Part shown: positions 2,703 to 63,170 of the stretch, piece after piece | How the letters are laid out: every line of letters begins with the position of its first letter | Numbering within the stretch: the stretch's first letter is position 1 | DNA from: Sorex araneus | Taxonomy: Eukaryota > Chordata > Mammalia > Eulipotyphla > Soricidae | Assembly (NCBI RefSeq): GCF_027595985.1 | Contig: NC_073307.1 | Span: 45,362,594 to 45,426,593, forward strand | Length of the DNA stretch: 64,000 bases | Direction of reading: 5' to 3' | Translations under genes and position numbers: made by a program | The notes under the pieces: generated by a model | Told to the model about the DNA's origin: nothing | Database searches by the model: none | The model's input: only the letters and a program-made list of their open reading frames with translations

Positions 2703-3696
2703 AAAGTCCTCTAAATTCCCACCCCTTCCTCCACGTGTGCCTTTTCTCTCGATCTTCTCTACACAGTCCTCCATTGTGCTAGATAATAGCTAGAATTTAG
2801 ACCGTCAGTGACTAGACAGTAGTATTCATCTCATAACACTGAGAGAGTATGACACTTAGTGGGCATGGATTAAATAAGCACTCAAGGAGTATATAAGAAA
2901 GAGGCAAATGGAGGCAAAAGGTATAAGAAAAGCAAGACTGGTATAGACATTGATCTCTACCTATCATTCTTAATTTAGGAAATACCTAGAGCACTGACCA
3001 CATTATATAAGTGAAACAGTATTACTATTTAAACATTGCTATTGAACCAATTAATTCTAATATGATGACTCACTGTTGATTATGAGACAATTATACAAAT
3101 ACAACTTTTAAAAGTCCTCATTAAACGCAGAGTCATTAGGGTTTAAAGGGATTCTACTAATCAAACTGTCTGTTCTTAATCTCTCCACAGAAACTTCCTT
3201 TTCTCCAGGCTAACTGAAAGACAAAATTTAGTATTTCTGTTTTTCTGGGGCTCAAACTCAAAGCCTCACATTAGCAGGATGTATATGGCACCACTTAAGC
3301 CATATTTCTAGCTGCTGGTCTATTCTATTTTTAATATTAGAGGATTTTATGTTATTAAAATTATATACATTTTAGGTATAGAATATTATGAATCAACATT
3401 TTTATATCAATTCAACAATAAAAGTCCAATTCTACTATGTTCAACCACATATTCAAAAAATTAAAGTTAAATTTTCAATTTAGGGGTGGAGAGAGAGCCT
3501 CCCAAGAAGTGCTCAGGGGAAACTCCCAGTGATATTTGACCCAGTGTTAGGCCCAGAGGATGTGGTACTATTGAGGCATAGCTGTTCTCGGATTATCACC
3601 CTCCACCCCCCCACAACAGTATTTGGGGCCTTCCAGAGTCACATTCAGATATGTCTGAGGAAACTTATTTTTTTCATATTCCTCCTCCTCCTCCTC

Positions 3697-3940
3697 CTCA
3701 TCATCATCATCCTATTGGTTGTTGAATTTCTCGAGTGGTCTCAGTAATGTCTCCATTCGTCCTACCCCTGAGATATTAGCAGCCTCTCTTTACTCGTCTT
3801 TCCCAATGGTGCCGTATTGGAGGCTCTTTCAGGGTCAGAGGAATGAGACCCAGCATTGTTACTGGTTTTGGCATATGAATACACCGTGGGGAGTTTGCAA
3901 GGCTGTTCCATGTGGGCCGGAAACTATCATATTTCTAGAT
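3697..3940 (-). mobile_element. SINE-C tail part
   Basis: (atc)n tail, tttctcgagtggtctcagta, tctccattcgtcctaccc, ggctctttcagggtcagagg. Confidence 0.8.
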
Positions 3941-26576: not shown

Positions 26577-26862
26577 ATTGTTTCCAATATTTTTGATCCA
26601 TGCCATTCACATTGGTGTGAGATGATATTTCATTGTTTTGGTAAGAGTTTCCCTGCTAACCAGTGACACTGAACGTTTTTTTCATATACCCACTGGGCAG
26701 TCTTATGTTTTCTTGGGAAAAAGTGTTTGATCATCTCTTCTAATTTTTTGATGGTGTTATTTGTTTTTGTTGCTGGGGGTTTTGAGTGCTTTGTGTATTT
26801 TTTTATATTATTCCTTTATCTCTTATGTTGTGTGTGAATATTTTCTTCCATCTAGTAAAGTG

Positions 26863-26899
<37 letters not shown>

Positions 26900-27221
26900 A
26901 ATATTTTATTGAACCACCGTGAAAACAAAAAAAAACAAAGCTTTCAGGTTTAAGTCACAGTCAAATACTGATTAAACCACCATCCCTTCACCAGTGCACC
27001 CGTTCCACCAACAAAAAACCCCAATACACCCCCCTCCCACCCCACCCCCCATCTAAGTAGCTGATGATATTCCCATTATTCTCTCTATATATTGAGTACA
27101 TTTCATATTTCCATACAGAACTCACTATTGTTGATTAGAAATTTTCCCCAACAATCAGGCCTGCTGAATAAGCATCATCTAATAATTTCTCTTCCTTGGT
27201 AAAGGTGAAGATTTTGAGTCT

Positions 27222-27245
27222 GCGCGGCCGCGATAGCGGCCGCGC
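27222..27245. repeat. Perfect GC palindrome in the L1 3'UTR
   Basis: The 10-nt arm gcgcggccgc, loop gata, then the exact inverse gcggccgcgc, in an otherwise AT-rich setting. Decayed forms occur at the matching place in other L1 3' ends here (ggccacagtagtgacc near 59592; cacggccgctattgcac near 62932; ctactgtggccacacg near 31095), so it is part of the L1 3'UTR, not a cloning scar. Confidence 0.8.
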
Positions 27246-27261
27246 GGTTTTGGGTTTCTAA

Positions 27262-28717
27262 TATTTTAGCTCAGTTCACAGTCAAAATGGATGGCTCCAA
27301 GAATCTGCTCTGGTGCCAAAATGGGTTAGGAGACCTCAGGATCACAGTCAGTAGGCGGGAGGCTCTGCTTCTCGTGCCGCGGCTCTTGGTTCATCTCTGG
27401 GCGGAAGGCGCGCCGGGAACACCTCCCCTCCCAGGATCACCTACAGGCTACGTCACTAAAGGAAGTCCTACCTCCTGGTGTAGGGGTCTTAGAGGGTGGC
27501 TCTCACCGCGTGGTTGCTGCCGCTGCCGCCATTTTCGCTCAGAAAAATGGGGTGGAGAGGGAAAAAAAATCCCTCCCCGGGCTGCACGAGGTTGTAGTTC
27601 AGTTCGCAGTCGAAATGCATGGCTCCAAGAATCTGCTCTGGTGCCAAAATGGGTTAGGAGACCTCAGGATCACAGTCAGTAGGCGGGAGGCTCTGCTTCT
27701 CGTGCCGCGGCTCTTGGTTCATCTCTGGGCGGAAGGCGCGCCGGGAACACCTCCCCTCCCAGGATCACCTACAGGCTACGTCACTAAAGAAAGTCCTACC
27801 TCCTGGTGTAGGGGTCTTAGAGGGTGGCTCTCACCGCGTGGTTGCTGCCGCTGCCGCCATTTTCGCTCAGAAAAATGGGGTGGAGAGGGAAAAAAAATCC
27901 CTCCCCGGGCTGCACGAGGTTGTAGTTCAGTTCGCAGTCGAAATGCATGGCTCCAAGAATCTGCTCTGGTGCCAAAATGGGTTAGGAGACCTCAGGATCA
28001 CAGTCAGTAGGCGGGAGGCTCTGCTTCTCGTGCCGCGGCTCTTGGTTCATCTCTGGGCGGAAGGCGCGCCGGGAACACCTCCCCTCCCAGGATCACCTAC
28101 AGGCTACGTCACTAAAGAAAGTCCTACCTCCTGGTGTAGGGGTCTTAGAGGGTGGCTCTCACCGCGTGGTTGCTGCCGCTGCCGCCATTTTCGCTCAGAA
28201 AAATGGGGTGGAGAGGGAAAAAAAATCCCTCCCCGGGCTGCACGAGGTTGTAGTTCAGTTCGCAGTCGAAATGCATGGCTCCAAGGATCTGCTCTGGTGC
28301 CAAAATGGGTTAGGAGACCTCAGGATCACAGTCAGTAGGCGGGAGGCTCTGCTTCTCGTGCCGCGGCTCTTGGTTCATCTCTGGGCGGAAGGCGCGCCGG
28401 GAACACCTCCCCTCCCAGGATCACCTACAGGCTACGTCACTAAAGAAAGTCCTACCTCCTGGTGTAGGGGTCTTAGAGGGTGGCTCTCACCGCGTGGTTG
28501 CTGCCGCTGCCGCCATTTTCGCTCAGAAAAATGGGGTGGAGAGGGAAAAAAAAATCCCTCCCCGGGCTGCACGAGGTTGTAGTTCAGTTCGCAGTCGAAA
28601 TGCATGGCTCCAAGAATCTGCTCTGGTGCCAAAATGGGTTAGGAGACCTCAGGATCACAGTCAGTAGGCGGGAGGCTCTGCTTCTCGTGCCGCGGCTCTT
28701 GGTTCATCTCTGGGCGG
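27262..28717 (-). repeat. Tandem array of 328-bp CpG-rich monomers (about 4.4 copies)
   Basis: The marker ggctcc recurs at 27293, 27621, 27949, 28277 and 28606: spacings 328, 328, 328 and 329. Units differ at only a few positions (cactaaagg/cactaaaga near 27458; ccaagg/ccaaga near 28283; one extra A near 28551), so the array is young. Each unit carries gccgccatttt (YY1-type core), tacgtcac (CRE-like) and many CpGs. YY1 sites and CpG-rich tandem monomers are features of L1 5'UTR promoters in rodents, which is why I read this as an L1 promoter array in minus orientation. Plus-strand ORFs of 130-166 codons here shift frame every unit and are not genes. Confidence 0.85.
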
Positions 28718-29140
28718 CAAAAGTGTCTTTTTTTTGCTCATATACCTTTTGCCATGCAAACACTTTTTAATTTGATATTGTTCCATTTACTATTTTTTTG
28801 GTCTTTCCCTCTGATGTCAAAACATTAAAGACAATTATGTGATCCATAGCCTGGAGAGTTTTGCAAAGTTTTTCTAGATTTTTTTAATGAATTTTGCATT
28901 TTCTAAAAGGTCTTCATGACTGTCGATTTCCTTATGCTATTTGTTGGAGGCTTTCTTGTTTCAACTTATGCAAGCTCCTTTATCAAAGATTAACTGTCCA
29001 TAGGTTAAGGGTTTACCTCTGGGCTCTCAATTCTGTTCCATTGATCTGAGAACTGAGGTTCATCCGCACAGTTTTGATTACTATAGCTTTGTAGTATAAT
29101 TTGAAATCAGGAAATAAAAGAAAATCTCATTTTTCTCTTT

Positions 29141-29784
<644 letters not shown>

Positions 29785-30493: not shown

Positions 30494-31478
30494 AAAAATC
30501 ATGAATGGAGAATTTCATGGGTATCCTTATAGGGATCTCATTGAATCTGTTTGGGGCGTGGTTGTGGGGAGAAAGGAACCCTCCTACACTGCTGGTGGGA
30601 ATGCCGAATGATTCAGCCCTTTTGGAAAACAATATGGTCTCTTCTCAAAAAATTAGAAATCAAGCTCTCTTTTGACCCAGCAATACCACTCCTGGGAATA
30701 TACCCAGAGAAGCAAAAAAGTATAGTCAAAATGACATCTGCACGTGTATGTTCATCGCAGCACAGTTTACAATAGCCAGAATCTGGAAAAAAACTGAATG
30801 CCTGAGAACAGATGACTGGCTAAAAAAACTTTGGTACATCTACACAATGGAATACTATGCAGCTGTTAGAAAGCATGAAGTCATGAAATTTGAATATAAG
30901 TGGATCAGCATGGAAAGTATCATGTTGAGTGAAATGAGTCAAAAAGAAAGAGAGAGACACAGAAAGATTGCTCTCATATGTGGAATATAAAGTAGCAGAG
31001 AGGTGCGAGCTAGCAATGATGCAACCTCTGGCAGAAAGCCCTCTGGACTTAGTCACTAAAATACTAAAATACAGAAATCTAGAACCTCAAGGCTGCTACT
31101 GTGGCCACACGACCTCATATCTCTTCATTCTCAGCAATGGAAAACAAATTATCTAATGCTTCCTTTCCAGCAGGTCCGACTCTGCGGGGGGGAAACTCCA
31201 AACAATAATAGTGAGTTTTTGTGTTTGTATGTAATCAAAGTAAAGAGAAAGTAAAGTGAAATTTATCAATTACACAGACGGGGTGGAGAGCTGGGGGCGG
31301 GGGGGGGCAAGAGGGGGAGGTTTAACGTGGTTTTTGGTGGTGGAATGGTGGTGGAATTCATGCAATGGTGAAGGGATGGGTGTTCGAGCATTATGTAACT
31401 GAGACTTAAGCCTGAAAGCTTTGTAACTTTCCACATGGTGATTCAATTAAAAAAAAAATTTTAAAAATCATGAATGGA
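30494..31478 (+). mobile_element. L1 3' end with ORF2 C-terminus, short 5' inversion and TSD
   Basis: Direct repeats aaaaatcatgaatgga at 30494-30509 and 31463-31478 bound the insertion. From about 30556 the plus strand encodes the ORF2 C-terminal region: GRGCGEKGTLLHCWWEC, then DPAIPLLGIYPE, then (new frame) TIARIWKKTE, YTMEYYAAVRKHEV and a final LICGI. The first 42 nt (30510-30551) are instead in inverse orientation and read FNEIPIRIPMKF on the minus strand, a block that lies further upstream in ORF2. That arrangement is the signature of twin priming. The 3'UTR includes G-rich tracts near 31290. Confidence 0.87.
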
Positions 31479-59186: not shown

Positions 59187-59765
59187 CAATTTTTTATTAT
59201 TATTATTGAATCACCGTGAGAACAATTACAAAGCTTTCAGGTTTAAGTCTCAGTCATACAATGATCAAACACCCATCGCTTCACCAATGCACATGTTGCA
59301 CCACCAAGAACCTCAGTATATTCCCCGCCCCACTGCCATCCCACCCCAGACCCTACCTCTTTACTTTGATTACATTCAATTTTCAACAGAAAACCCACAG
59401 CTGATCTTGACTAGATCTCCAACTCTTCTCAGAGTTGGATTACGGTACTTTCTTTACTTTGATTACATTCAATTTTCAACAGAAAACCCACTATTATTAT
59501 TTGGAATTTTCCCCCAACAATCAAACCTGCCGAAAAGGCATCATTAGATAATTTGTTTTATTGGTAATGAAGAGCATATGATGTTGCATGGCCACAGTAG
59601 TGACCGTGCAGTTTTGAAATTCTGGTATTTTAGTAATTAAGTCCAGAGGTATTTCTGCCAGAAGCTACTGTGTTCTGAGATTGGCTTGTGTTCCTCTGGG
59701 ATTATGGCCATTCAGGAGCAGAGGAGTCGCTCATGGCGGCAACTCAGAACAATTTTTAATAACCA
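59187..59765 (-). mobile_element. L1 3'UTR end with internal 40-bp duplication
   Basis: Antisense tail and 3'UTR. The decayed GC palindrome lies near 59592. A 40-bp block (tttgattacattcaattttc...) occurs twice, at about 59360 and 59453. cagaacaattttt flanks both ends as a TSD. Confidence 0.88.
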
Positions 59766-62577: not shown

Positions 62578-63170
62578 ATTTTGCCACATTCTTTTTTTTT
62601 ACAATTTTTTGTAATTGAATCACCATGTGGAAAGTTACAAAGCTTTCAGGCTTAAGTCTCAGTTATACAATGCTCAAACACCCATACCTTCACCAGTGCA
62701 CATATTACACCACCAGGACCCCGTATACCTCTCCCCCACCCTGCCCACCCCCTGGCCTGTGTAGCTGATAAATTTCACTTTATTTCTCTTTACTTTGATT
62801 ACATTCAATATTTCAACAAAAAACTCACTATTATTGTTTGGAGTTTACCCCCCCCCCAAAGTCAGATCTGTTGAAAAGGAAGCATTTGATAATTTGTTTT
62901 ACATTGCTGACAATGAAGAGATTTGAGGTTGCACGGCCGCTATTGCACTATTGTTTTGGATTTTTGTGTTTTAGTAACTAAGTCCAGGGAAATTTCTGCC
63001 AGAAATTGCATCACTACAAGCTCGTACCTCCCTTTTGTGGTCATCATAAAATGGTGGCCAAGGCTCAGTTCAGAATAGTGACATTCCTGCAAAAAGCTGC
63101 TGGTGCCCAAAGTAGTTTAGCTGGCTTCCGGGCCATGGTCATGCATCAGCAGAGAGTTTGCCACATTCTT
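62578..63170 (-). mobile_element. L1 3' end with TSD
   Basis: tttgccacattctt at 62578-62591 and 63157-63170 bounds it. Contains the tail, C-rich tract, decayed palindrome near 62932 and about 200 bp of upstream 3'UTR. A good reference for the full 3'UTR of this L1 group. Confidence 0.92.

Follow-up and report, generated by a model that had tools for sequence, protein, structure and literature searches.

An ORF-less, probably L1-mobilised family with putative tandem promoter monomers in the Sorex araneus genome

Structure of the inserted element

The window, that is, the whole stretch of 64,000 nucleotides of Sorex araneus DNA analysed here, carries on its minus strand at 26857-28735 an insertion composed of 4.4 tandem 328-bp units, an L1-type 3'UTR and an A-tail, all inside one 16-bp target-site duplication (TSD). 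This structure had been described in a sequence-only reading of the window, and it is confirmed by repeat finding (Tandem Repeats Finder: array 27267-28717, period 328, 4.4 copies, 99% matches) and by the TSD AAAGTGTCTTTTTTTT, which is found exactly at both 26857-26872 and 28720-28735. The parts of this element, hereafter called the mini-L1, are as follows.

26857-26872, no strand: TSD on the 3' side of the element (16 bp), exact match to 28720-28735
28720-28735, no strand: TSD on the 5' side of the element (16 bp), exact match to 26857-26872
26865-26894, minus: A-tail (T30 on the plus strand, overlapping the TSD), from repeat finder and sequence
26905-26910, minus: AATAAA polyadenylation-type signal just before the A-tail, unique in the element and located 38 bases before its 3' end
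26895-27266, minus: L1-type 3'UTR segment, aligning with the old L1 piece 30860-31460; boundary to the monomer within a few bases
27222-27245, minus: hairpin within the 3'UTR segment, its GC stem perfect over 10 bp and its loop of 4 bases (RNA fold energy -24.7 kcal/mol, z -5.8)
27264-27591, minus: 3'-most putative promoter monomer, slightly diverged, joined to the 3'UTR; this junction occurs at 2,637 places genome-wide
27592-27919, minus: putative promoter monomer (328 bp), from repeat finder and unit identity
27920-28247, minus: putative promoter monomer (328 bp), from repeat finder and unit identity
28248-28576, minus: putative promoter monomer (329 bp), from repeat finder and unit identity
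28577-28719, minus: partial 5' monomer, whose match begins at unit position 188, within the cluster of copy starts
27853-27863, minus: presumed YY1-type motif AAAATGGCGGC, unit position 57, one per full unit
27777-27784, minus: presumed CRE-like motif GTGACGTA, unit position 136, about 60 bp before the putative start, one per full unit
27723, minus: putative transcription start, unit position 197, from copy 5' ends (equivalents at about 27395, 28051 and 28379)

Compared with unit 27592-27919, the full units show 98-100% identity, the most divergent being the one that adjoins the 3'UTR, and the 5' end of the copy lies near 28719. The CpG observed/expected ratio of the array is 0.65, as against 0.14 and 0.19 for the two flanks and 0.26 for the whole window. 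Both gccgccatttt and tacgtcac are present in every full unit; on the sense strand the unit has AAAATGGCGGC at position 57, GTGACGTA at 136 and CCGCCC at 188, which we take to be YY1-type, CRE-like and GC-box-like motifs, respectively. The longest sense ORF beginning with ATG is 57 aa in the window copy and 43 aa in a standard-length form, and the window copy does not have the ORF1 and ORF2 of an autonomous L1.

Copies in the genome

We searched the window's own assembly, which comprises 2.41 Gb in 65 contigs. A 28-base pattern across the monomer/3'UTR junction, with up to two mismatches allowed, was found at 2,637 places genome-wide, and because the reversed control gave 0, a chance origin of the junction is excluded. 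When 27262-28735 served as DNA query, 39 of 1,019 candidates were scored and yielded 84 matches, and in a search with 26895-27330 the junction was spanned in all 40 scored copies (2,551 candidates); one of these is the window copy and the others are 98-99% identical to it, which agrees with the recent insertion proposed earlier. The monomer is directly joined to the 3'UTR in the first eight loci of eight, the window copy counted, and in all 20 sampled places, which were chosen for carrying the junction and seven of which have just part of a monomer. This sample takes about every fifth of the 100 exact junction matches listed, with one step shifted by one for a locus already in the set. A 24-base pattern from the start of the 3'UTR alone was found at 3,155 places (reversed control, 4) versus 2,637 for the 28-base junction; the surplus may reflect looser matching, truncated copies or copies with another neighbour, and by-eye comparison placed 97 of the 100 listed exact 3'UTR-start places among the listed junction places as well.

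The number of full units was counted in 48 copies: 0 in 7, 1 in 27, 2 in 7, 3 in 2, 4 in 2, 6 in 2 and 7 in 1. A copy at C3:104.5 Mb has about 25 units, and at C1:130635659-130642860 at least 23 exact monomer-to-monomer joints stand in a row with 326-bp spacing, far above typical copies; such long arrays could have grown after insertion. Four loci at which the match ended early (L091-L094) were ruled out as ORF-bearing copies, for the monomer continues into the 3'UTR in all four. They have differing deletions or changes at or across the hairpin 27222-27245, a pattern that suggests a reverse transcriptase skipping the stem.

Integration hallmarks were examined in 52 distinct loci, obtained by the two similarity searches and the 20-place sample, 45 of which the fetched stretch contained in full. 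Among these 45, a TSD of at least 10 bp is present in 38, all 38 being different (6.9% in the null with shuffled 3' flank), and the other seven have none of that length. The target-site consensus is TT/AAAA, and A-tails and differing flanks are seen across the sampled copies, so the family has the TSD, A-tail and target site of L1-type integration. The apparent TSD of the copy with about 25 units is weaker than the others because it was read by eye (L090 against L003) and lies within an AAACATT-repeat flank. The array is not limited to this locus, and two expectations of the sequence-only reading, recurrence of the exact junction at other loci and different TSDs there, are borne out by the 2,637 places and the 38 distinct TSDs.

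Copy 5' ends and the putative promoter

The 5' ends of copies were examined in 55 distinct loci (the above 52 and L092-L094), and an end was visible in 48. As many as 32 of the 48 copies start at unit positions 181-200, where 2.9 are expected, and 14 start exactly at 197; the remaining 16 start outside 181-200. In 13 of the 14 copies starting at 197 the preceding base is G, where the monomer has A, and one lacks this G. The extra G lies just outside the TSD in nine of the 13 copies and inside it in one (L038), and three have no TSD that decides the matter. For a human L1 insertion, an untemplated 5' G has been interpreted as pointing to a capped template, as passages of PMC6425141 describe.

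Outside CpG, 0 of 117 sites are changed in the YY1-type motif (0 of 143 overall; 13 sample copies that reach the site) and 0 of 84 in the CRE-like motif (1 of 112 overall; 14 sample copies), the background being 3.2% in the last monomer and 4.8% in the 3'UTR; this comparison needs caution, as it is based on 13-14 related copies and one reference. The YY1-type motif lies about 130 bp upstream of the putative start at unit position 197; in human L1, the YY1 site is at about +12. A SINE would have a pol III promoter (A/B boxes) that derives from a small RNA gene; the start cluster with the extra G, together with AATAAA, points to a pol II type of transcription, and the mini-L1 has the tandem units and the clustered copy starts that mark a monomeric promoter of the mouse type. 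From the clustered starts, the TSDs and the recurrence, it appears that this is a non-autonomous family with an internal pol II-type promoter, as had been suspected before the genome was searched.

Relation to resident L1s

ORF1-bearing L1s are abundant in this genome: the search for ORF1 gave 150 scored matches of 13,300 candidates, many with 351-aa open frames. We fetched 30 ORF1-bearing loci together with 1.5 kb of flank on either side; being the best-scoring ORF1 copies, these 30 cover old L1s poorly. The 328-bp monomer is present in 0 of the 30 loci, even at E up to 1. Nineteen of them align to L057 from its position 724 or earlier, the remainder being shorter or divergent there, and since the L1 5' end of L057 is at about 608 and its ORF1 at about 1040, these 19 include most of the L1 5'UTR. 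The five loci whose sequence was inspected have a 5'UTR different from the monomer, and five of the 30 have a tandem unit of their own, of 142-152 bp. In L067 (352-569), L042 (342-716) and L054 (494-730), all in ORF1 sense, the 5'UTR contains a C-rich tandem unit of about 143 bp, after which comes a GGGCGTGG-containing sequence; L056 has ORF1 and the start of ORF2 in one continuous frame, of 672 aa from the first ATG.

We also examined what follows the monomer. Allowing mismatches, monomer ends were found at 3,784 places, those leading into a monomer at 1,968 and those leading into the 3'UTR at 1,929; the latter two add up to 3,897 and do not close with 3,784 because the mismatches are allowed over different letters, and therefore a few per cent of monomer ends might have another neighbour. 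Among the first 100 monomer ends listed, 42 are followed exactly by a monomer, 46 by the 3'UTR and 8 by a monomer as judged from spacing, and four (C1:8453643, 42641410, 49708548 and 65683724) have no assigned neighbour. These counts appear to leave little room for ORF1 beyond a possible minority of a few per cent. Autonomous L1s starting with the 328-bp monomer are thus rejected for the L1s examined, with 0 of 30 and a different 5'UTR. The earlier proposal that shrew L1s use the 328-bp monomer as their promoter, and that its units would be found at the start of ORF1-bearing L1s, is not supported, given the 0 of 30 loci, the unit of 142-152 bp in five of them and the other neighbours of 96 of the 100 listed monomer ends. 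From the 30 loci and the neighbour counts it follows that the element is not simply a present L1 minus its ORFs.

Concerning the 3' end, one young L1 was traced to its own 3' end, and its 3'UTR shares about 60% identity with the element across the final 190 bp or so, with a further piece of about 70 bp at 71%. The 3' part of the element aligns at 65% with the old L1 piece 30860-31460, in which the ORF2 end is retained, and it is by this alignment that the segment is assigned to an L1 3'UTR. As to ends shared with a putative autonomous partner, the 5' end occurs in 0 of the 30 ORF1 loci, a set that covers old L1s poorly, and the 3' end is at about 60% to the one young L1 and 65% to the old piece. 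No autonomous partner with the same 3'UTR was found in these comparisons, and for that reason mobilisation by L1 is what we infer.

Age and older relatives

Outside CpG, 32 young copies differ by 0-0.6% from their own majority sequence, and the 20 sampled copies by 0.9-9.3% from the young majority sequence. The first locus set is biased to young copies because it was picked by similarity to the window copy; the sampled set was chosen by the exact 28-base junction. An unrooted tree of the copies is ladder-like in our reading. Three older features of the window were compared with the mini-L1.

62594-63156, minus: older complete ORF-less element with TSD AAGAATGTGGCAAA (by eye), belonging to a large older family and homologous in its 5' part to the monomer end
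59195-59744, minus: another older complete ORF-less element with TSD AAAAATTGTTCTG (by eye), of a large older family, from genome search
30860-31460, plus: older L1 3' end with the ORF2 C-terminus and a related 3'UTR (for comparison), from alignment and genome search

With 62594-63156 as query, the alignment covers at least positions 15-540 of its 563 at all 40 places scored (6,398 candidates); one is the copy in the window and the others are at 86-89%, and four of the 40 have a second 5' copy about 232-235 bp further upstream (spacing by hand). With 59195-59744 (7,271 candidates), the 5' part (86-89%) and the 3' part of the query are found at 38 of 40 scored places, which lack its private internal insert; C8:51668182 aligns through at 74%, and one further place is the copy in the window. 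In eight of these 40, a second 5' module lies some 307-313 bp upstream of the first, again with spacing by hand. The 5' end of 62594-63156 has clear homology with the monomer end (score 43 versus 20.4 +/- 2.9, reached in 0 of 500 shuffles of two-base blocks), and that of 59195-59744 is weakly similar to the monomer (score 27, with 11 of 500 such shuffles as good); BLASTN missed both similarities. When the old L1 piece 30860-31460 was used as query, all 40 scored places spanned the ORF2 end and the 3'UTR, one being the piece in the window and the others 90-92% identical.

The two older families of the window indicate that elements combining a 5' module with an L1-type 3'UTR and lacking ORFs were present in earlier periods, some already with repeated 5' modules. 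Since both older elements stand for large older families, the lineage appears long-lived, and this suggests that mini-L1s have persisted long in this mammal.

Interpretation and origin

We consider it highly probable that the insertion belongs to a young non-autonomous family mobilised by L1, in which tandem promoter monomers, an L1-type 3'UTR and an A-tail follow one another without any ORF and an internal pol II-type promoter is copied along. According to this explanation, a pol II transcript would start near position 197 of one monomer, as the copy 5' ends and the extra cap-like G suggest, would pass through the remaining monomers and the 3'UTR, and would be polyadenylated after AATAAA. The RNA would be copied in trans by L1 proteins at TT/AAAA sites, to which the TSDs, A-tails and target sites point. 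Were the start in an upstream monomer, the daughter would retain one whole promoter unit or more, and the promoter would thus be inherited, as in mouse L1. Judging from the comparisons made here, the lineage is apparently old, its promoter differing from those of the examined ORF1-bearing L1s and its 3'UTR from that of the single young L1 traced to the 3' end. We lean, with some reserve, towards the wider view that this protein-less L1 derivative is a lineage of its own, in at least three age classes, which combines a self-renewing tandem pol II promoter with a 3'UTR absent from the young L1s examined and parasitises whichever L1 is active; it would then be a mammalian counterpart of RIME/ingi with an independently evolving promoter.

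Two origins, each compatible with the explanation favoured above, deserve consideration. There is, in our judgement, not quite an even chance that monomer and 3'UTR represent the two ends of an L1 lineage in which the ORF-bearing form has died out or become very rare in this genome, the mini-L1 being a RIME-like deletion product that has outlived its parent. The L1-like 3' part of the element, the older L1 family with its related 3'UTR at all 40 scored places, and the precedent of RIME and ingi, for which we refer to passages of PMC2323293, are in accord with this origin, but neither a monomer-like nor an older-module-like 5'UTR is seen in the 30 ORF1 loci, which as best-scoring copies cover old L1s poorly. 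We would advance more tentatively, though still as a plausible origin, that the monomer is a host or other promoter captured and fused to an L1 3' end, in the manner of a composite such as SVA or LAVA. The unit is CpG-rich, has CRE-like, GC-box-like and YY1-type motifs and resembles none of the ORF1 loci in their 5' parts, in accord with such a fusion; yet the older element 62594-63156 already has a 5' end that matches the monomer end, and any promoter capture must for this reason be old.

It is improbable that the copies are dead-end by-products, each formed anew when an L1 with a 328-bp monomeric 5'UTR was spliced, or jumped template, to its 3'UTR, as in SpIREs. Such products exist in human (PMC5860796), and in two older copies the L1-type part starts, by eye, in or near the 3'UTR; against this, 0 of 30 ORF1 loci have the monomer, a monomer or the 3'UTR follows 96 of the 100 listed monomer ends, the single young L1 compared has a 3'UTR of only about 60% identity, and one junction is common to copies over 0-9% divergence, with the unrooted tree read as ladder-like. 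With the 5' end absent from the 30 ORF1 loci and one junction at 2,637 places over a range of divergences, what was found does not correspond to a resident L1 5'UTR spliced downstream in one-off dead ends. A satellite, a segmental duplication or an assembly artefact, to which the long arrays at C3:104.5 Mb (about 25 units) and C1:130.6 Mb (at least 23 joints) might point, we regard as extremely unlikely and reject for the family as a whole by its 38 distinct TSDs, alongside A-tails, different flanks and one full unit only in 27 of 48 copies, growth of single long arrays being possible.

Comparison with known systems

None of the titles and abstract openings listed by the literature searches concerns this family, and a library entry may exist in Dfam or Repbase; by word look-up, the portions of PMC2894050, PMC12026660 and PMC11602158 covered have no mention of shrew L1. 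The L1-mobilised ORF-less family favoured here may be placed beside several known systems. In form, the closest appears to be RIME with ingi. Passages of PMC2323293 describe RIME (partner of ingi) and NARTc (partner of L1Tc) of trypanosomes as short non-autonomous non-LTR derivatives formed by deletion of the coding part, which are probably mobilised by the partner's protein and some copies of which are nearly identical. The mini-L1 likewise is ORF-less, has many copies, includes near-identical recent ones and carries the LINE hallmarks. It differs in its mammalian host, in a putative promoter that is a tandem array, and in its ends: RIME, in the same passages, retains both ends of ingi, whereas the 5' end of the mini-L1 is not that of the examined ORF1-bearing L1s.

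Among mammals, the closest way of life seems to be that of SVA and LAVA of hominoids, presented in parts of PMC4432496 and PMC7353768 as non-autonomous elements that use L1 proteins in trans and vary in tandem-repeat number. In the mini-L1, the repeat carries the putative start and the 3' end is an L1-type 3'UTR. SVA is built from an Alu-like region, a VNTR and SINE-R, with an L1 piece in the case of LAVA; of such features, the mini-L1 is seen to have tandem repeats. For the putative promoter, the mouse L1 monomer would be the closest counterpart. The relevant sections of PMC9022269 report for the A, Tf and Gf monomers a variable unit number and copies that tend to start at certain unit positions, with a YY1-type motif in Tf; there, however, monomers precede a tether and ORF1, and Tf starts overlap the YY1 motif, whereas mini-L1 monomers precede the 3'UTR and mini-L1 copies start about 130 bp after the YY1-type motif. 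Human SpIREs are internally deleted L1 derivatives and, according to PMC5860796, generally dead ends, unlike the mini-L1, which is spread over a range of divergences and whose 5' end is not that of the L1s examined.

HAL1 (half-L1), a non-autonomous mammalian relative of L1, keeps ORF1, whereas the mini-L1 is without any ORF. The ORF-less copies number in the thousands and their divergence runs from almost nil to about 9%, which suggests that an ORF-less L1 derivative may persist if its promoter is copied with the RNA. Natural variation in monomer number, start position and 3'UTR offers a test system for what an RNA needs for trans uptake by L1 in the face of cis preference. With a working promoter, the family would also spread numerous CpG-rich promoters bearing CRE-like and YY1-type sites through the genome.

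Other observations in the window

Overlapping antisense open frames of 226 aa run over the array on the plus strand (27330-28010 and 27658-28338); they are probably a by-product of GC-rich repeats and could mislead gene callers. An (AGAA)n microsatellite of 59 copies at 29537-29769 begins at the 3' end of an older L1-type fragment and has apparently grown from its A-tail.
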